Assembly (NCBI GenBank): GCA_016286995.1
Contig: JAEEVA010000014.1
Coordinates: forward strand, 1 to 64,000
From: Prevotella sp.
GTDB taxonomy: Bacteria > Bacteroidota > Bacteroidia > Bacteroidales > Bacteroidaceae
DNA: 64,000 bases
Reading direction: 5' to 3'
The stretch's first letter is position 1, and each line of letters opens with the position of its first letter. Positions 15,917 to 61,128 of the stretch are shown in pieces. The notes beneath the pieces were generated by a model. That model was not told the origin of the DNA, did not search any database, and saw only the letters and a program-made list of their open reading frames with translations. The translations under genes and the position numbers were made by a program.

Positions 15917-17453
<1,537 letters not shown>

Positions 17454-17455
<2 letters not shown>

Positions 17456-17484
17456 TGTTCAATGGTCAATGTTCAATGGTCAAT
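17454..17484. repeat. Solo 31-bp heptamer array (AATGKTC x4 + AAT)
   Basis: AATGTTC AATGGTC AATGTTC AATGGTC AAT, overlapping the atpD stop. Confidence 0.9.
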
Positions 17485-17493
17485 AATTGAAAT

Positions 17494-20076: not shown

Positions 20077-20610
20077 ATGGATATAGGAGTCATATCGGTG
20101 AGATATGCGAGGGCGCTGCTGAAGAGTGCCACCGACCAGAAGCTCGACGAGCAAGTTTATCAGGACATGATAACCTTGGCCAAGAGCTACATTGAGGTGC
20201 CTCAGTTGCGTCAGACCATAGACAATCCTATGCTCGCCAAGGATCAGAAGCAGGTATTGCTGGAAACTGCCTCGGGCAGTCAGGCATGTCAGCTGACGAA
20301 GGCCTTCATCGCTCTGGTGTTGAAGGAAGACCGCGGGAATATGATGCAGTTTATGGCCAACTCGTACGTGACGCTTTACCGCAAGCAGAAGAACATCATC
20401 CGAGGTAAGCTGACCACCGCTGCCCGTGTTTCTGCCGCTACTGAGCAGAAGATGCGGCAGATGGTGGAAAGCCAGGCTAATGGTACTGTTGAGTTTGAAA
20501 CGGAGGTGAATCCCGATATCATCGGTGGTTTCATCCTCGAATACGACACGTTCCGCATGGACGCCAGTGTCAAGTCGAAGCTCAACAATATTCTACAAAC
20601 ACTAAAGTAA
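20077..20610 (+). CDS. atpH: F0F1 ATP synthase subunit delta
   Basis: VSVRYARALLKSA-type N-terminus; VNPDIIGGFILEYDTFRMDASVKSKL. Confidence 0.93.
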   Translation: MDIGVISVRYARALLKSATDQKLDEQVYQDMITLAKSYIEVPQLRQTIDNPMLAKDQKQVLLETASGSQACQLTKAFIALVLKEDRGNMMQFMANSYVTLYRKQKNIIRGKLTTAARVSAATEQKMRQMVESQANGTVEFETEVNPDIIGGFILEYDTFRMDASVKSKLNNILQTLK

Positions 20611-20612
20611 TT

Positions 20613-20854
20613 ATTGAACATTGAACATTGAAGATTGAACATTATATGCGAGCAGACAATCAAATATTGATCATCTCGAAATCTTTCGCTCTTCGGATAA
20701 TTAGGCTTTATACCTATTTGAAAGAAGAGAAAAGGGAGCATGTGATGTCAACTCAATTGTTGAGATGTGGAACAAGTATTGGTGCTAATGTTCGCGAGAG
20801 TAAAATCTTCAAAGTCTAAGACTAATGTTCAATGTTCAATCATCAATGTTCAAT
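20613..20854. mobile_element. TIR31 element E1: 31-bp heptamer inverted repeats flanking a truncated S23/IVP ORF
   Basis: Left 20613-20643 ATTGAACATTGAACATTGAAGATTGAACATT; right 20824-20854 AATGTTCAATGTTCAATCATCAATGTTCAAT; 28/31 complementary by eye. Confidence 0.6.
20628..20819 (+). pseudogene. Truncated four-helix-bundle (S23/IVP) protein
   Basis: DNQILIISKSFALRIIRLYTYLKEEKREHVMSTQLLRCGTSIGANVRES aligns with the N-terminus of the 34534-34905 protein, then ends. Confidence 0.7.
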
Positions 20855-20870
20855 AAAATTTTAAAAGCAA

Positions 20871-22457
20871 ATGTCAGATAAGATTAAACCAAGCGAAGTA
20901 TCCCAGGTGCTGCTCGAACAGCTGAAAGGTATTCAGAATGCCGAACAGTTTGACGAGGTAGGTACCGTACTCACCGTCAGCGATGGTGCTGCCCGTATCT
21001 ACGGTCTGCGCAATGCCGAGTCTAAGGAACTGCTGGAGTTCGAGAACGGCACGATGGCTATTGTGGAGAACCTCGAGGAGGACAACGTCGGTTGTGTGCT
21101 GCTGGGTACCACGTCAGGCATTAAGGAAGGTATGGTTGTAAAGCGCACCAAGCGCATCGCTTCTATCCGTGTCAACGACAATATGCTCGGTCGTATTGTC
21201 AATCCGCTGGGACAGGCTGTCGATGGCAAGGGCGATATCGACCTCACTGACTCTTTCGAGATGCCGCTGGACCGCAAGGCTCCTGGCGTTATCTATCGTC
21301 AACCGGTGAAAGAGCCGCTGCAGACGGGTCTGAAGTCCATCGACTCGATGATTCCCATTGGCCGTGGACAGCGTGAGCTCATCATTGGTGACCGCCAGAC
21401 GGGTAAGACGGCCATTGCTGTGGATACCATCATCAATCAGAAGAGTTTCTATGAGGCAGGTAAGCCTGTCTATTGTATTTATGTGGCCATCGGTCAGAAG
21501 GCCAGTACCGTTGCTAACCTGGTGCAGACACTGAAGGAGCATGGCGCTATGCCATACACCATCGTAGTGGCTGCTACCGCTGCTGATCCTGCTGCCCTGC
21601 AGTATTACGCACCATTTGCTGGAGCTGCCATCGGTGAGTATTTCCGCGACCGTGGCTTCCCTGCTCTCGTGGTTTACGACGACTTGTCGAAGCAGGCCGT
21701 GGCCTATCGTGAGGTGTCGCTGATTCTGCGCCGTCCCTCTGGACGTGAGGCATATCCAGGCGACGTCTTCTACCTGCACAGCCGTTTGTTGGAGCGTGCT
21801 GCCAAGATGAACGAACAGCAGGAGGTGGCTGAGCAGATGAACGACCTGCCAGAATGCATGAAGGGTCATGTCAAGGGTGGTGGTTCTCTTACCGCTCTGC
21901 CTATCATCGAGACTCAGGCCGGCGACGTATCGGCATACATCCCGACTAACGTGATTTCGATTACCGACGGTCAGATATTCTTGGAGAGCGACCTCTTCAA
22001 CCAGGGCTTCCGTCCTGCCATCAACGTTGGTATCTCCGTTTCCCGTGTGGGTGGTTCGGCACAGATCAAGTCCATGAAGAAGGTAGCTGGTACGCTGAAG
22101 ATTGACCAGGCACAGTATCGTGAGCTCGAGGCCTTCTCGAAGTTCTCCAGCGACATGGATGCTGTGACAGCCATGACGCTCGACCGTGGTCGTAAGAACC
22201 AGCAGCTGCTCATCCAGCCGCAGTACAGCCCCATGCCCGTCGGCGAACAGGTGGCTATCCTCTACTGTGGTGTGCATGGACTGATGCGTGATGTACCCAT
22301 CGACAAGGTGCGTGAGTGTCAGAACCAGTTCCTCGACAAGCTGCGTTCGTCGGCTCCCGAAGTCATCGAGACACTGGCTGCCGGTAAGATTGACGACGAG
22401 ATGACTGCCAAGATTGAGGCTGTCATGGCTGATATTGCAGGAACCTATAAAGCATGA
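20871..22457 (+). CDS. atpA: F0F1 ATP synthase subunit alpha
   Basis: [31 protein letters not shown]. Confidence 0.98.
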
Positions 22458-27135: not shown

Positions 27136-30100
27136 TCACTTAATCACGACCTTACGGCCATTGACGATGTACACACCCTTCTTCGTGGGAGTGCCATCCA
27201 GCTGACGACCGTTCAAGTTGTAGATGGTGGAAGGCTTCTGATGTAATGTTGAGACGGGAGTGACACTTGTCGTTGCATCTTCATTGATAAAGAAGAACTC
27301 CTTCCACTGTGGTGCCTGCTGATAGGCTGACAAACAACTGGGAGGTACACTCAATGTGCAGTTCCACTTGTTGATGTCGTCCAATGCCTGGTTGCCACAT
27401 GTGGGTGGTACTGCTGCATGGCTAATCAGCTTGGTCATTGCCGTACAGTCGGAGAATGCCTCTTGGCCAATTTCCTGTACACAGGAGCCAAATGAGAAGA
27501 AATCGAGGCTGCTGCACCCGGAGAAAGCCCAATTGCCAATCTTCGTCACACCATTTCCAATCTTCACTTCCTTCAGATTTGTACAGCCATAGAATTCATT
27601 CTCCGAAATTTCTGTCTCTTTATTCGTTATCTCTACTGAACGTAACGTAGTATTCCGATAGAATGGAGAGTAACCATAGTAGCTCGAAGTTGAGTAGGTG
27701 ATGTTCCTGCCAATATAAACATAGTCAAGTGGACAGCTCGAGAATATCGGTCTACTATTACTGCCATAACCAAGTGCCAGTTCCGACTCATGCTCATCCA
27801 TGATAACAGTTTTTAAACTGGTACATCCACCAAAAACGTAGTTTCCGATAGATGTTACATTTTGAGGAATACGAATCGTTGGCAAAGCGCTGCAACCCCC
27901 AAAAGCACCCTCATTGATTGTCTTGACACTGCTGCCAATTTGCAGATCAATCAAAGAAGAACAGCCACTGAATGTATATTCATCAATGATATTAACACCA
28001 CTTCCTATTTTAGCAGATGTCATTAAAGAGCATCCGGAAAAAGCAGATTTCCCGATGGAAGTTACGGCATCAGGGATTACAATGCTTTCCAATTTAGAAC
28101 ATCCGTAGAAACTATTCTCGCCAATTGAAGTAACACCCTGACCTAAACCTGCAGTTTGCAAGGCTGTACATTTGTAGAATGCATTCTTTCCAAGATTGCC
28201 CTGATTGCTAATTGATACCGTATTTATGCTTTTACATGTATAAAACGCTTTTTCCCCTATATCTCCTTTAAAACTCAATGAAACATCTTGAATAAACTGA
28301 TTGTTATAGAATGCATAAGGATGAACTTGTTTTACCGTCAATGCTATTCCCTTATTCGTTACGGTTTCTCCGATATTCACATGTTCGTTAGTTTCATTAT
28401 ACAAACAATCAATAGCATCGCAAGTGCGGTCAGAAGGGCTTACAGGCACATATTTTACTCCGTCAACCTCAAAAAGTGAGCTTAAGAACGGATATTCTGT
28501 TTTGTTATACAGTGAAGTATATAGGTTATTTGGCACATAGTTCACTGATCCTGCGGCATTGTTATATCCACTTGGTGGTGTATTCGTTAACCAAATTACC
28601 TTTGTCGGTTTATGATTCTCAAAAATACCTGAACCGAAAGTCAATATTCCAGAGCCAATAGTTACACTCTCTAATTTGGAACAAGATGCGAATGCATTTT
28701 TATCGATGCTTGTCACTGAGTTGGGAATGGTCACGTTTATCAGGCCAGTGCAGTTACTGAACGCTTTGTCGCCGATGCTCGTCACTTCATCGCCGATTAT
28801 TACCTCTTTAATATTTTTGAGACCAGAAAACCAATTACCAATTGTACTACAATGGAATGTTACGCTCGTAAGGCCAGTGCAGTTATAGAACGCACTGGAA
28901 CCGATACTTGTCACTGAGTTCGGTAAGGTTATGCTTGTCAGACCAGTACAGTTATAGAACGCACTGGAACCGATTCTTATCACTGAGTTCGGTAAGGTTA
29001 TGCTTGTCAGACCAGTGCAGTTACTGAACGCTTTGTCGCCGATGCTCGTCACTTCATCACCGATTATTACCTCTTTAATATTTTTGAGATCAGAAAACCA
29101 ATTACCAATTGTACTACAATGGAATGTTACGCTCGTAAGGCCAATGCAGTTGTAGAACGCACTGGAACCGATACTTGTCACTGAGTTCGGTATGGTTATA
29201 CTTGTCAGGCCAGTGCAGCCTTCGAACGCCCCATAACCGATACTCGTCACTGAGTTGGGGATTGTTATACTCGTCAGGCCAGTGCAACCAGCGAACGCAC
29301 CACCGTTAAATCCTCCGATATCATTCGAACCAATGGACGTTACAGAGTTAGGTATGGTAACATTACTCAAACCTGTACAGTTATAAAATGTCCCATTCGC
29401 AATTGTTGAAATGGAATTCGGAATGGTTACGCTCGCCAGGCCTGTACAGCCTTGGAACGCATCTTTACCAATACTCGTCACTGAGTTCGGAATGGTTACG
29501 CTCGTCAGCCCTGTGCAGCCAGAGAATGCAGAGCTACCGATACTTGTCACTTCATCACCGATTGTAACTTCTTCAATATTTCCGAAGCCAGAAAACCAAC
29601 TACCAATTATATTACAGTGGAATGTCACGCTCGTCAAGCCAGTGCAGCCAGAAAACGCATAGCCACCGATGCTCGTCACTGAGTTGGGGATTGTTATGCT
29701 CGTCAGGCCAGAGCAGCCAGAAAACGCATAGCCACCGATGCTCGTCACTGAGTTGGGGATTGTTATGCTTGTCAGACCAGTGCAGCCAGAAAACGCATCG
29801 CTACCGATACTCGTCACTGAGTTGGGAATGGTTATGCTCGTCAGACCACTGCAGCCATGGAACGCATCCCAACCGATATTCGTCACTTCATCACCGATTA
29901 TTACCTCTTTAATATTTTTTAGATTAGAAAACCAACTGCCGATTGTATTACAATGGAATGTCACGCTCATCAGGCCAGTGCAGCCAGAGAATGCAGAGCT
30001 AGCGATATTTGTCACTGAATTGGGGATAGTTATACTCGTCAGACTAGTGCAGCCAAGAAATGCTTCGCTACCGATACTCGTTACTGAGTTGGGGATTGTT

Positions 30101-30834
30101 ATACTTGTCAGGCCAGTGCAGACAGAGAACGCAGAGCTACCGATACTTGTCACTTCATCACCGATTATAACTTCTTTAATGCTTTCGAAACCGGAGAACC
30201 AACTGCCAATTGTACTACAATGGAATGTCACGCTCGTCAGACTAGTGCAGCCAGAAAACGCACCATTACCGATGTTCGTCACTGAGTTCGGAATGGTTAT
30301 GCTCGTCAAACTAGTACAACCAGAAAACGCCTCATAACCGATGCTCGTCACTGAGTTTGGGATGAGTGTGTTTTGACAGCCCCATAGAAGTGTGTTAGTT
30401 TCAGTTTCAATAATAGCATTACAGTTATTTCGTGAATCAAATTTAGGATTATCTTGTGATACAACAATTGACGTCAGGCCAGTGCAACCTCTGAACGCAT
30501 AATTCTCGATGCTCGTTACTGAGTTTGGGATGGTTATGCTTGTTAGACCAGTGCAGTCACTGAACGCAGAGTTACCGATACTCGTTACAGGATAATTTTT
30601 TCCTCTATAAAAAACTGATTCAGGAATGACCACATTGCCAGAGTATTCATTGGAATAACTAAAAGAATAATCGCCACGATAGCTGACAGCAAACTCTGTA
30701 TAGTTGTTTGTATATCTATAATAGATGGTGACACCATCAGAATTGACCACTGCGATGTCGTAGGAAAAGGCTTTTGTTCCAACCATGCTCATGAGCACGG
30801 TGAGGAGTAATGTAAGTTTAAACTTTTTCATCAT
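27136..30834 (-). CDS. BspA-like leucine-rich repeat (LRR_5) surface protein, 1232 aa
   Basis: Signal peptide; many 23-aa repeats ([21 protein letters not shown]); C-terminal [28 protein letters not shown]. Confidence 0.95.
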
Positions 30835-34504: not shown

Positions 34505-34927
34505 ATTGAACATTGAACATTGACCATTGACCATTAATCTTTCGCTTCCGTTTTGGTCGTTTTGATGATTTTGGTCAGGGTAGCTGCAATTTTACCACAA
34601 TCATTATAAATAGATTCAAATTGTTTGTCGTCTATTACGTCTGACTCATGTAACAGCTCTAGCCAATATTCAGTTTCGTTTGCTTCCTTTAGAGCAATGT
34701 TTAATTTGTTAACAAAATCCATTCGACTTTGAGCATTGACACTCTCTCGAATATTTGCCCCTATACTAGTGCCACTTCGGAGAACTTGCTTAGACAATAC
34801 ATATACTTGTTTGTCTTCTTTCAAGTACTTATAAAGACGGATTATTCGTAGTGCAAAAACCTTACTATCAATTAATACTTGATTATCCGTCTTCATAATG
34901 GTCAATGTTCAATGTTCAATGGTCAAT
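34505..34927. mobile_element. TIR31 element E2: 31-bp heptamer inverted repeats flanking an intact S23/IVP ORF
   Basis: Left 34505-34535 ATTGAACATTGAACATTGACCATTGACCATT; right 34897-34927 AATGGTCAATGTTCAATGTTCAATGGTCAAT; 29/31 complementary by eye. Confidence 0.65.
34534..34905 (-). CDS. Four-helix-bundle protein, S23 / 23S rRNA intervening-sequence protein (IVP) family
   Basis: SKVFALRIIRLYKYLKEDKQVYVLSKQVLRSGTSIGANIRESVNAQSRMDFVNKLNIALKEANETEYWLELL. Confidence 0.9.
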   Translation of the reverse strand: MTIMKTDNQVLIDSKVFALRIIRLYKYLKEDKQVYVLSKQVLRSGTSIGANIRESVNAQSRMDFVNKLNIALKEANETEYWLELLHESDVIDDKQFESIYNDCGKIAATLTKIIKTTKTEAKD

Positions 34928-35990: not shown

Positions 35991-36152
35991 TTTGTTAGTT
36001 TCTTGTTTTAAGAGTTTATATTTACTTTTACCTTTTTACCTTGAAATGTGGCGCGAAGTTACACTTTTTATTTCATTTGACCAAATATTTGAGCAAGAAT
36101 TAAGCAAAATACCCTATTTTACTTGCTTATTGTCAAGTCGAAGTGGCAAAAT

Positions 36153-36211
36153 GTTGACCGTTGAACATTGAACATTGAACATTGAGCATTGAACATTGAG
36201 CATTGAACATT
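36153..36211. repeat. Heptamer array, 8 units + 3 nt (59 bp)
   Basis: GTTGACC GTTGAAC ATTGAAC ATTGAAC ATTGAGC ATTGAAC ATTGAGC ATTGAAC ATT. Confidence 0.9.
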
Positions 36212-36212
36212 A

Positions 36213-37583
36213 TTAGCGAACCTTTTCGACAATGGTTTTGATTCCTTTGATTTTTTCTCCCTGAACACTGTTGAGCACTTGCTGTACTTTTTCACGACGG
36301 ATGGCTGCATAGGTGTAGCGGTCCTTTACGTCGATGCGACCAATCTCTCCAGCCTCTATACCACCCTTTTTGCACAGGAATCCCACAATATCACCTTTCG
36401 AAAGCTTATCCTTCTTGCCCTTGCCGATGTAGAGGGTAGCCATCTTGGGGGCTGGGACATTGACCATTGATGATTGACCATTGACCATTTTCTGGGTGGG
36501 CTCGTAATGTTCAATGTTCAATGGTGAATGGTCAATGACAAACTCGGGGATATGCTCTTCGCTGTTCAGGATAAAGAACGTGCGGCCTGTGGCATCCCAA
36601 CGGGCCGTACGGCCTACACGGTGGATGTAGCCTTCTTCGCTTTCTGGCAGATGGTAGTGGATAATGTTCCGGATGTTTGGAATGTCCAGTCCACGTGAAG
36701 CCAAGTCGGTAGCTACGAGCACGTTTGCCGAGCCGTTGGCAAACTTGTAGAGCATATCCTCGCGTTGGCGCTGTTCCAGTCCACCATGAAAGTGACTGGT
36801 CGTAAAGCCCTGTTTGCGTAGGAATTCGTTGACTCGCTCAACGCTGTCGCGGTAGTTCAGGAATACAATACTGCTCTCATCGCCAACACTCAGCAACAGG
36901 TTGCGCAGTGTTTCCAGCTTGTCCTTCTGTGGACTGTGCACCTCATAGAGTGTCACACGCTCCGACGTCTGCTCGTCTTCAGGTAGGAAGTCTACCAGCG
37001 TGCCTTTTTTCGACATATTGACAAACTGTGGAATCTGTTCGGCATTGGTGGCTGATAGCAGGATGCGACGCTGCAGACCTGGCAGGCTCTTCAGCAGTTT
37101 GGACATCTCAGCTTGGAATCCCATTTCCAGGCATTTGTCGAACTCATCGATGATTAGATAGCGGATGCCATAGCGTGAGATGTTGTCCTTGTCCAGATGG
37201 TCATTCAGGCGTCCGGGAGTGCCAAAAACAATATGCGGGCGTACCTCTTTTAATATGCGATGCTCGTCCATGGTCGGTCTGCCACCGTAGCACGCCATGC
37301 CACGCAATCCACAGCCCAAACTCTTCAGGACGTCGGCCGACTGTAGTGCCAGCTCCCTGCCTGGAGTGATGACGAGGGCAGATGTCTGAGAGTCTTTGTC
37401 AGAAGGCTGAGTGGTTTCTATGAGCTGTATGAGGGGTAGGAGATAAGCCAGTGTCTTTCCCGAACCGGTAGGTGACAAGATAACAACATCACCGTCGGTG
37501 CCTGTAATGGCCTCGACGGCGTGTTGCTGCATCTCGTTCAATGAAGTGATGCCAAGTTTGCTTAATATCGTCTCAACATCCAA
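36213..37583 (-). CDS. DEAD-box RNA helicase with a DbpA-like C-terminal RNA-binding domain
   Basis: SPTGSGKTLAYLLPL, LIIDEFDKCLEMGF, LLSATNAEQ, HRVGRTAR; start codon appears to be TTG inside a heptamer array. Confidence 0.9.
   Translation of the reverse strand: MDVETILSKLGITSLNEMQQHAVEAITGTDGDVVILSPTGSGKTLAYLLPLIQLIETTQPSDKDSQTSALVITPGRELALQSADVLKSLGCGLRGMACYGGRPTMDEHRILKEVRPHIVFGTPGRLNDHLDKDNISRYGIRYLIIDEFDKCLEMGFQAEMSKLLKSLPGLQRRILLSATNAEQIPQFVNMSKKGTLVDFLPEDEQTSERVTLYEVHSPQKDKLETLRNLLLSVGDESSIVFLNYRDSVERVNEFLRKQGFTTSHFHGGLEQRQREDMLYKFANGSANVLVATDLASRGLDIPNIRNIIHYHLPESEEGYIHRVGRTARWDATGRTFFILNSEEHIPEFVIDHSPLNIEHYEPTQKMVNGQSSMVNVPAPKMATLYIGKGKKDKLSKGDIVGFLCKKGGIEAGEIGRIDVKDRYTYAAIRREKVQQVLNSVQGEKIKGIKTIVEKVR
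36459..36536. mobile_element. TIR31 mini-element E3 (31 + 16 + 31 bp), in frame inside the DEAD-box helicase gene
   Basis: 36459-36489 ATTGACCATTGATGATTGACCATTGACCATT; 36506-36536 AATGTTCAATGTTCAATGGTGAATGGTCAAT; 78 bp = 26 codons. Confidence 0.6.
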
Positions 37584-58574: not shown

Positions 58575-60101
58575 ATGTTTGAAAACCAACCTAAAGGACT
58601 TTTTGCGTTGGCACTGGCCAACACAGGTGAGCGATTCGGCTACTATACCATGCTGGCCGTCTTCGCATTGTTTCTGAGAGCCAACTACGGCTTGGACGCA
58701 GGATGGGCAGGTGAAATCTACAGCGATTTCCTCATGCTCGTCTATTTCTTCCCCTTGGTGGGTGGCTGGATGGCCGACAAGTTCGGCTTTGGTAAGATGG
58801 TGACATGGGGTATCATGATTATGTTTGCCGGTTACGTGCTGCTTTCCGTACCTCTTGGTGGCGACACTTTCGCCCTGATTGTCATGCTGGCAGCCCTGCT
58901 GTTCATCGGCTTCGGCACAGGTATGTTCAAAGGCAACCTGCAGGTGATGGTCGGCGACCTGTACAACGACCCGAAGTATGCTGACAAGCGCGATGCGGGC
59001 TTCTCCATCTTCTACATGGCCATCAACATTGGTGCCCTGTTTGCACCGACGGCAGCCGTGAAAATCATGGAGTGGGCACAGCAGAACCTGGGCGTTAGCG
59101 TCAACGACAGCTACCATTTCGCCTTTGCCGTGGCCTGCGCTTCGCTCATTCTGTCTATCGCTATCTACTACATGTTCCGCAGCACCTTCCGCCATGTCGA
59201 AGGTGGAAAGAAAAAGGCTGGTGAGGCTGCCGTCGTCGACGACCTCACACCCGAGCAGACCAAGGAGCGTCTCATTGCACTGGGTCTGGTCTTTGCCGTG
59301 GTCATCTTCTTCTGGATGGCATTCCACCAGAATGGTCTCTCGCTGACTTACTTTGCCGACGAGTTCACGGCACAGAGTGCTACCGGCGTACAGGGTATGG
59401 CCTTCAACGTCTGGAACCTTGTGGCTGTCATCTTCATTATCTATGCCGGCTTCTCTCTGTATCAGGGCAAGACAGCCAAGACCAAGGGCATCTCGGCACT
59501 GGTCATCGTACTGGCCGTGGCCTTCCTCATCTTCAGCTATTCTGTTCAGGAAGGTGTCGTGAAGGTCAGTGCTCCTATCTTCCAGCAATTCAATCCCTTC
59601 TATGTCGTAGCCCTTACACCGGTATCACTGGCCTTGTTCGGCTGGTTGGCATCGAAGGGCAAGGAGCCCTCTGCTCCTCGTAAGATAGCCTATGGTATGC
59701 TGGTGGCTGGTGTAGCCTTCTGCCTCATGGCCTTCTTTTCCTTCGGACTGCCGTTGCCGCAGACCGTACCGGGTGCCGACGGTAATCCCGTTGCAGTGCA
59801 TGTGGCCGACGTATCGCCCAATCTGCTCATTGGCACCTACCTCATCCTGACCTTTGCCGAGCTGCTGCTCTCACCGATGGGCATCTCGTTCGTTTCGAAG
59901 GTAGCACCTCCCAAGTACAAGGGTGCCTGCATGGGTGGCTGGTTTGTGTCTACTGCGCTTGGCAATAAGCTCGTCAGCGTCAGTGCCTATCTTTGGGGCG
60001 GTCTGCCTCTCTGGCTGGTATGGAGCGTGTTCATCGTGCTCTGCCTGCTGTCTGCTGCCTTCATGTTCTCCGTCATGAAACGTCTGGAGAAAGTTTGTTA
60101 A
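58575..60101 (+). CDS. POT-family peptide MFS transporter
   Basis: NTGERFGYYTMLAVFALFLRANYGL; GMFKGNLQVMVGDLYND. Confidence 0.93.
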   Translation: MFENQPKGLFALALANTGERFGYYTMLAVFALFLRANYGLDAGWAGEIYSDFLMLVYFFPLVGGWMADKFGFGKMVTWGIMIMFAGYVLLSVPLGGDTFALIVMLAALLFIGFGTGMFKGNLQVMVGDLYNDPKYADKRDAGFSIFYMAINIGALFAPTAAVKIMEWAQQNLGVSVNDSYHFAFAVACASLILSIAIYYMFRSTFRHVEGGKKKAGEAAVVDDLTPEQTKERLIALGLVFAVVIFFWMAFHQNGLSLTYFADEFTAQSATGVQGMAFNVWNLVAVIFIIYAGFSLYQGKTAKTKGISALVIVLAVAFLIFSYSVQEGVVKVSAPIFQQFNPFYVVALTPVSLALFGWLASKGKEPSAPRKIAYGMLVAGVAFCLMAFFSFGLPLPQTVPGADGNPVAVHVADVSPNLLIGTYLILTFAELLLSPMGISFVSKVAPPKYKGACMGGWFVSTALGNKLVSVSAYLWGGLPLWLVWSVFIVLCLLSAAFMFSVMKRLEKVC

Positions 60102-60214
60102 GGTAAAAGTGAAGAGTGAAAAATTTGCTACCGCCATGATGATGCGACGTGCAGGAGCTTTATGCTTGATGCTATATTGTGCGGTAGCAAATTTTTCACT
60201 TTTCACTTTTACCT
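60101..60214. repeat. 34-bp near-perfect inverted repeat with 46-bp core encoding most of a signal peptide
   Basis: AGGTAAAAGTGAAGAGTGAAAAATTTGCTACCGC / GCGGTAGCAAATTTTTCACTTTTCACTTTTACCT, 33/34. Confidence 0.85.
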
Positions 60215-61128
60215 TTTCACTTTGCCCCGTAGGGGCTCAGACGCTCGTCGAGCTGAACTGTGAGAACCTGTTTGACTGCCGTCACGACTCACTGAAGCAA
60301 GATACTGAGTGGTTGCCCGAAGGCCAGCGCCACTGGACTCCTGCCCGATACTGGCGAAAAGTGAACAGTATCGGGCAGGAGATTCTTTCATGTCAGGAGA
60401 ATGGCATCCCTGACCTCGTAGCACTGGTAGAAGTGGAAAACGATTCAGTCGTTTTCGATATGACACGGCGTTCACTGTTGCGTAATGCCGGCTACGAATA
60501 CCTCATGACCGAGTCGCCCGATGTCCGTGGCATCGACGTGGCCTTGCTCTATCAGCCTGCGACGTTCCGCCCCATCTGCTACGACTATCTCACCATTACG
60601 CCGTTAGAAGACATGCGTCCCACACGTGACATCCTGTATGTTCAAGGGGAAACCTTGAACAGCGATACCCTGCATGTCTTTGTGGTCCATGCCCCCAGCC
60701 GCTTTGGCGGTGAACGGTCCACGCGTCCCAACCGCCGTCTGATTGCCGACAAGCTGTTGGAGACCATCCACCGTTTGCCGTCCGATGCCAAGGTCGTAGT
60801 GGCCGGTGACTTCAACGACTATGCCGACAGTCCTGCCCTGACATATCTGGAGCAGCATGCCCTGCATATCATTAGCCGCGATGCCCATGGTCGGTATGGC
60901 GCTGAGGGTACCTACCGCTATCAGGGACGTTGGCAGAGCATCGACCACGTGCTGGTGAGCAACGCCCTATTGCCTTCCGTCGAGCAAGTCTATGTCAACG
61001 ATGCCCCCTTTCTGATGGAGGAAGACAAAAAGTACGGAGGAGTCAAACCCCTCCGTACCTTCAATGGTTATCGCTACCAGAAAGGCTTCAGCGACCATTT
61101 GCCGCTGGTGGTCCGTTTCCGGTTCTAA
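60136..61128 (+). CDS. Secreted endonuclease/exonuclease/phosphatase-family protein
   Basis: ELNCENLFDCRHD, VEVENDSVV, VVAGDFNDYADSPAL, FSDHLPLVVRFRF; start taken at first ATG. Confidence 0.85.
   Translation: MMMRRAGALCLMLYCAVANFSLFTFTFSLCPVGAQTLVELNCENLFDCRHDSLKQDTEWLPEGQRHWTPARYWRKVNSIGQEILSCQENGIPDLVALVEVENDSVVFDMTRRSLLRNAGYEYLMTESPDVRGIDVALLYQPATFRPICYDYLTITPLEDMRPTRDILYVQGETLNSDTLHVFVVHAPSRFGGERSTRPNRRLIADKLLETIHRLPSDAKVVVAGDFNDYADSPALTYLEQHALHIISRDAHGRYGAEGTYRYQGRWQSIDHVLVSNALLPSVEQVYVNDAPFLMEEDKKYGGVKPLRTFNGYRYQKGFSDHLPLVVRFRF

Follow-up and report, generated by a model that had tools for sequence, protein, structure and literature searches.

A decayed arm-IVP-arm element at the atpH–atpA junction of Prevotella and its probable origin in a site-faithful mobile cassette

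The spacer between the ATP-synthase genes atpH and atpA of a Prevotella-type genome (a 2.96 Mb metagenome bin, 84% complete) carries a decayed element, here called E1, in which two matched inverted heptamer arrays enclose the remnant of an IVP (four-helix-bundle) gene. We analyzed E1 in a 64,000-nt stretch of DNA, referred to below as the window, and compared it with IVP loci in related genomes. The E1 lineage occupies the same junction in scattered Prevotella and has been exchanged between species into that junction; in three of its four carrier species the protein gene has been lost through independent frameshifting deletions, with the arms unchanged. Based on these observations, we propose that E1 is probably a degenerate local allele of a mobile, intercistronic IVS-like cassette, whose arms would be its DNA ends and whose spread between alleles would proceed by recombination.

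Anatomy and alleles of the atpH–atpA element

The inverted 31-bp arrays of the original prediction are real, with 28 of 31 positions complementary at the coordinates in Table 1, and a repeat finder extends them to 20611–20644 and 20823–20856 (91% complementarity over 34 nt). The predicted fold of the 266-nt junction has an energy of -77.6 kcal/mol (z = -6.1), equalled by 0 of 200 shuffles, and the stem scores 53 compared with a maximum of 26 among 30 shuffles; because both values exceed all shuffles, the arms are not a product of chance. The ORF between them had been given as 63 residues long. It exists, but 63 residues require an in-frame TTG at 20628, and from the ATG it encodes the shorter product listed in Table 1. 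As had also been anticipated, it resembles the N-terminus of the IVP encoded by E2, an intact element between serC and serA in the same window (71% identity over 52 residues), and it ends 4 nt before the right array. Homology is restricted to the first ~52 residues; nucleotides 20803–20815 align to the full-length L107 element as a frame-shifted leftover of the C-terminal IVP codons, and are followed by an addition of ~6 nt. The remnant scores 32.2 bits against PF05635 (E = 1.3e-7), just below the cut-off of 33.8, and 35.1 bits against TIGR02436, above the cut-off of 24. E1 would presumably yield no working protein. An intron is ruled out as its identity, with no Rfam match, introns included, in the window.

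Table 1. Coordinates of E1, E2 and neighboring genes in the window
Feature	Position	Strand	Details
atpH (delta subunit), upstream neighbor of E1	20077..20610	+	ORF, 177 aa
E1 left arm, (ATTGAAC)-type heptamer array	20613..20643	+	2 nt past atpH stop; 31/31 identical in four species
E1 truncated IVP (four-helix-bundle) ORF remnant	20646..20819	+	57 aa from ATG
E1 internal deletion junction	20802..20803	+	176 nt absent relative to full-length L107 element (alignment)
E1 right arm, inverted heptamer array	20824..20854	-	16 nt 5' of atpA start; 31/31 identical in four species
atpA (alpha subunit), downstream neighbor of E1	20871..22457	+	ORF, 528 aa
E2 arm adjoining serA start, 3' of IVP stop on minus strand	34505..34536	+	repeat search
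E2 intact IVP ORF between serC and serA	34534..34905	-	123 aa; PF05635 E = 4e-29
E2 arm 5' of IVP start, past serC stop	34896..34927	-	repeat search

The original prediction proposed a comparison of the junction among relatives. With atpH as the anchor gene in about 100 same-genus genomes, we read the atpH–atpA junction in about 70 of them, leaving out the genome with the closest AtpH, in whose assembly the 5' end of atpA is absent. Empty, full and deleted alleles are all present. About half of the junctions are at most 30 nt long and lack a stem, and the E1 arms recur in three further species, represented by HUN156, P. ruminicola KHT3 and RGIG9705 (HUN156 and KHT3 are named strains; the window and RGIG9705 are metagenome bins). 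The RGIG9705 allele, L107, retains a full-length IVP ORF in a spacer of 429 nt. The KHT3 allele lacks 70 nt near the IVP C-terminus, E1 has lost its 176 nt from mid-element together with the reading frame, and the HUN156 allele lacks ~311 nt, nearly the entire ORF; the spacers thus measure 429, 368, 260 and 127 nt across the four alleles, and the deletion breakpoints in the three decayed ones are, in the same order, 293/363, 192/368 and 34/345. The two 31-nt arms have the same sequence in every carrier, mismatches included, whereas four-fold sites in atpA differ by 39–54%.

Independent deletions between shared arms identify E1 as an allele, now decayed, of the element resident at this junction and not as a shortened E2. 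The full-length L107 element at the same junction bears out the prediction that E1 derives, by internal deletion and loss of the protein, from an arm-IVP-arm element in the atp operon. Its description as a second copy of E2 has to be abandoned, since E1 belongs to a separate lineage, which has a full-length member at the atpH–atpA site, and E2 represents the serC–serA lineage. Descent of E1 from E2 by deletion is ruled out on the same ground, and a unique, recent, strain-specific insertion is ruled out by the occupation of the site in three other species. Distant genera sharing this truncated ORF and these arrays, named beforehand as evidence against the prediction, were not found: the three other Prevotella species share the arms but all interiors differ, and an exact search with 23 nt of the right arm over GTDB species placed it at atpA in Prevotella/Prevotellaceae only.

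Two further relatives carry unrelated structures at this junction, namely an IVP-less hairpin with GGAGTTAAGACAA-type arms resembling those of other IVP sites (L078) and a CCCCCTAA-type inverted repeat (L062). The junction seems to accept such hairpin elements repeatedly.

Matching of the arms and its upkeep

Matched inverted short-tandem arms (score ≥36) flank 79 of 98 full-length Prevotella IVP loci, compared with 2.3% of cross-site pairs, and 37 of 49 when one locus is taken per site. Detectable periods are 7 or 8. The arm units differ greatly between lineages, yet both arms of one element agree, and this holds even among same-site elements whose units have drifted. When different sites are compared, arm type tracks the phylogeny of the IVPs (rho 0.30, 0 of 2000 permutations), and therefore the arms belong to the unit and travel with the gene. 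In other Bacteroidia families, sampled once per genome, 14 of 29 IVP loci have arms at a score of ≥30 (null 0.25%); similar arms surround four Nostoc plasmid IVP genes (one 39/39) and one in Bernardetia, and those of a Treponema plasmid IVP gene match more weakly. The Nostoc loci (L252–L255) lie between matched inverted arrays of the heptamers AATTCGT, GGAAGTC and GTCGCAA, and two of them adjoin XisH/XisI genes.

Such arms could serve at the RNA level. By analogy with the 23S rRNA IVSs, they would then form a stem in the atp mRNA that sets off the loop within the operon transcript, and RNase III would cut this stem. Selection would maintain the stem for its part in processing the atpH–atpA mRNA, whether or not a protein is made, a reading that we regard as possible but doubtful. 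It draws on the anatomical likeness to the IVS of Coxiella, itself excised by RNase III (PMC4990558), and on the great stability of the predicted stem in E1 and in the shortest allele (z = -8.7). The arms of the E1 lineage are constrained: between L104 and L107, 0 of 62 arm positions have changed, against 13 of 27 four-fold sites of the same IVP ORF (p = 1e-8), a constraint that may come from mobility or from a role in the host operon. The arm on the 5' side is rich in G and poor in C (34 of 40 sites), and IVP is co-directional with both neighbors at 39 of 46 sites; the latter also makes plausible the predicted tolerance of E1 within a polycistronic mRNA. However, selection on a stem should prefer G·U to A·C mismatches, and the arms contain 60 of the former and 85 of the latter on the transcribed strand (35 and 44 with one locus per site). 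By this test, covariation lends no support to a functional RNA stem, and the missing G·U excess favors upkeep of the arms at the DNA level and leaves selection on an RNA stem unproven. The atp operon itself does not need the stem, because short, stemless junctions make up about half of those in the relatives.

Arms that match as DNA with no G·U bias might also arise neutrally, slippage making the arrays and hairpin-templated (quasi-palindrome) correction matching them, with no role for the arms in mobility or in RNA. This would account for the higher scores of own over swapped arms within sites where the units have drifted (for example, 38 versus 20 at site 1 and 74 versus 29 at site 7). We nevertheless consider it unlikely: (i) the same three mismatches persist in the E1 arms of four species, so that hairpin-templated correction is inactive there, (ii) arm type accompanies the IVP lineage to new sites and (iii) arm polarity is constant.

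Lateral movement into fixed sites

The four E1 carriers are scattered on the AtpF-H-A tree, and the closest relatives of each are empty or differently filled. L107 is nested among empty species; it is full and its sister species L056 is empty, with ~97% identity in both flanking genes. The window element (L033) is 94–96% identical to L107 although the flanks are only ~80% identical, which argues for lateral movement of the element into one fixed site; synonymously changed codons amount to 7 of 48 in the element and 57 of 137 in the flanks (p = 0.0007). Among 299 genomes, the lineage (≥82% DNA identity) is confined to atpH–atpA. The filled/empty pair L107/L056 has no target-site duplication, and the stop codon and a few adjoining nucleotides are altered along with the insertion, as expected of recombination through conserved gene ends. 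Phage and plasmid records hold no close relative of the E1 IVP (best identity 45% and 55%, respectively), and such a vehicle is ruled out for E1.

E2, 423 bp in total, provides a second case. Its IVP, like the full-length family, clearly exceeds the PF05635/TIGR02436 profile cut-offs, and its nearest solved chain is 2rld_A (E = 8e-38). The serC-IVP-serA site is common to 14 loci (E2 and 13 others), where IVP and flank divergence are discordant in both directions. At four-fold sites, the window and HUN156 differ in 2 of 40 IVP positions but 77 of 183 flanking ones (p = 2e-6); the corresponding values are 3 of 34 and 81 of 187 for L196–L201 (p = 8e-5) and, in the opposite direction, 21 of 30 and 71 of 187 for L198–L216 (p = 0.001), the weaker p-values being indicative only because several such comparisons were examined. 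By these comparisons, the E2 lineage behaves like that of E1, moving laterally and keeping to its site. Clustering of 102 IVP loci by both neighbors, drawn from best-scoring matches and hence not independent of one another, yields 50 sites that mostly match IVP clades, one other site holding 11 loci. The host genome of E1 contains two more IVP loci, one with an in-frame TAA at a site common to five loci (C42:8899-9207) and an open gene between inverted AATTTTT arrays (C69:21195-21506).

Vertical inheritance would place the element at atpH–atpA ancestrally, with deletion in most species and arms kept by chance or constraint. The shared junction and shared arms of all four carriers agree with this, as does the equal divergence of element and flanks between L104 and L107, and the distribution may therefore be partly vertical descent plus loss. 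As the explanation of E1 it is nonetheless improbable in view of the closeness of the L033 and L107 IVP genes relative to their flanks, the nested position of L107 and the incongruence in both directions at serC–serA. For each transfer, direction and date are read from few sites, 17–40 four-fold sites per IVP.

Derivatives, proposed mechanism and relation to known elements

The genome holds 44 exact copies of ATTGAACATTGAACATT, many remote from any IVP gene, as might be expected of ordinary intergenic microsatellites that flank a relic ORF by accident; this explanation has next to no chance of being correct, being refuted by the matched-arm test and by the same anatomy in three phyla.

Arrays and hairpins lacking an IVP gene occur elsewhere in the window. 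At 60100–60215, AAAAGTG-type repeats that end in TTTGCTACCGC form two near-perfect inverted arms of 35 bp (97%), 46 nt apart and with no ORF; the inner TTTGCTACCGC box is also found within the arms of some IVP genes (L162, L175, L183 and L187), and the structure seems to derive from another lineage by loss of the IVP gene. ATTGAAC-type units form a direct array at 36146–36213 and a tight inverted pair with no IVP gene around 36458–36489/36503–36540, and a solo heptamer array (17451–17488) overlaps the 3' end of ORF 15929–17455, upstream in the same atp cluster. Long in-frame repeats (69/198-nt periods) occupy 28669–30588 in a 1232-aa minus-strand ORF (27136–30834). In a Bacteroidaceae bin (L121, ~1650–1770), an IVP-less hairpin combines heptamer arms with an inner GCTACCGGTA box and has the same outside-to-inside polarity as E1.

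Returning to the mobile cassette, we suggest that the complete unit, of ~430 bp, consists of an inverted heptamer array, a four-helix-bundle IVP gene and a second inverted heptamer array. The arms would be the DNA ends of this unit, probably bound by its own IVP, and the unit would be copied into an allelic empty junction via recombination through the conserved gene ends and not by cut-and-paste. Transcribed with its neighbors, it would be tolerated because of its location between co-directional genes and its folding out of the mRNA as a hairpin. Movement of E1 would require host recombination or a helper acting in trans, such as an E2-type IVP. IVP is not known to have a catalytic function, and no enzyme capable of inserting the unit was identified.

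The closest known counterparts are the IVSs in the 23S rRNA genes of Coxiella, Leptospira and Salmonella, which encode an S23p/IVP ORF. The Coxiella IVS has 428 nt, a 28-bp stem, an S23p ORF in reductive evolution and heptamer repeats before the ATG (PMC4990558). It is matched by the 429-nt spacer of the full E1-lineage allele and by E2 in length, and the two kinds have in common terminal inverted repeats with a stem of ~28–31 bp, which in E1 is that of the predicted fold, around a single ORF belonging to a common protein family, tandem heptamers 5' of the start codon and persistence of the element as the protein gene decays. They differ in location, a 23S rRNA helix as opposed to a protein-operon spacer, and in that both arms of IVP cassettes are tandem heptamer arrays, with lineage-specific units and many operon sites per genus. 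The PF05635/TIGR02436 four-helix-bundle proteins (PDB 2RLD, 2GSC) belong to the same sequence family as the intact ORF; these models cover the protein alone and not arms, sites or mobility. Like MITEs and REP/RAYT elements, the decayed forms derive from a coding element but are short, palindromic and without coding capacity, and they are numerous within a genome; unlike them, IVP cassettes have no visible target-site duplication or transposase, and every lineage stays at a single site. The E1 lineage shows neither a duplication at the L107/L056 pair nor scattered insertions. E1 also lacks a homing endonuclease gene and any Rfam intron, IVP being its sole ORF, and its allelic, site-faithful lateral spread is homing-like as behavior, not as membership of that class.

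Short tandemly repeated sequences of cyanobacteria are direct arrays of 7-bp units and, to our knowledge, have been linked in previous reports neither to an IVP gene nor to inverted pairs. These and the intergenic TAACTGA repeats of Beggiatoaceae, direct arrays with no link to an IVP gene or inverted pairs (PMC4679880), resemble the arms as 7-bp tandem units in spacers beside start or stop codons. The matched inverted heptamer arms of the Nostoc plasmid IVP genes, a sample of four loci, suggest that the cyanobacterial repeats are linked to IVP cassettes.

In the open-access literature we found no earlier description of IVP cassettes between the genes of protein operons, a provisional result; automatic annotation gives just 'four helix bundle protein' and overlooks the arms. 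Tentatively, IVP cassettes may be a class of mobile elements that spans phyla, resides in operon spacers and is homing-like in its faithfulness to sites. Their sole protein would be a four-helix bundle, and their ends would be inverted microsatellites that change fast but always match each other and have constant polarity. In Bacteroidota and heterocystous cyanobacteria, many intergenic hairpins and heptamer arrays would be products of their decay. The cassettes also offer an origin for heptamer arrays in the spacers of unrelated bacteria.

Finally, a kind of cassette known mainly from split ribosomal RNA genes is found here between essential ATP-synthase genes of rumen-type Prevotella. The origin and spread of rRNA IVSs and the job of IVP/S23p have been open questions since 1990 (PMC4990558), and the occurrence of the cassette at many operon junctions of culturable rumen bacteria, where filled alleles coexist with decayed and empty ones, makes both IVS spread and the job of IVP testable outside the ribosome.
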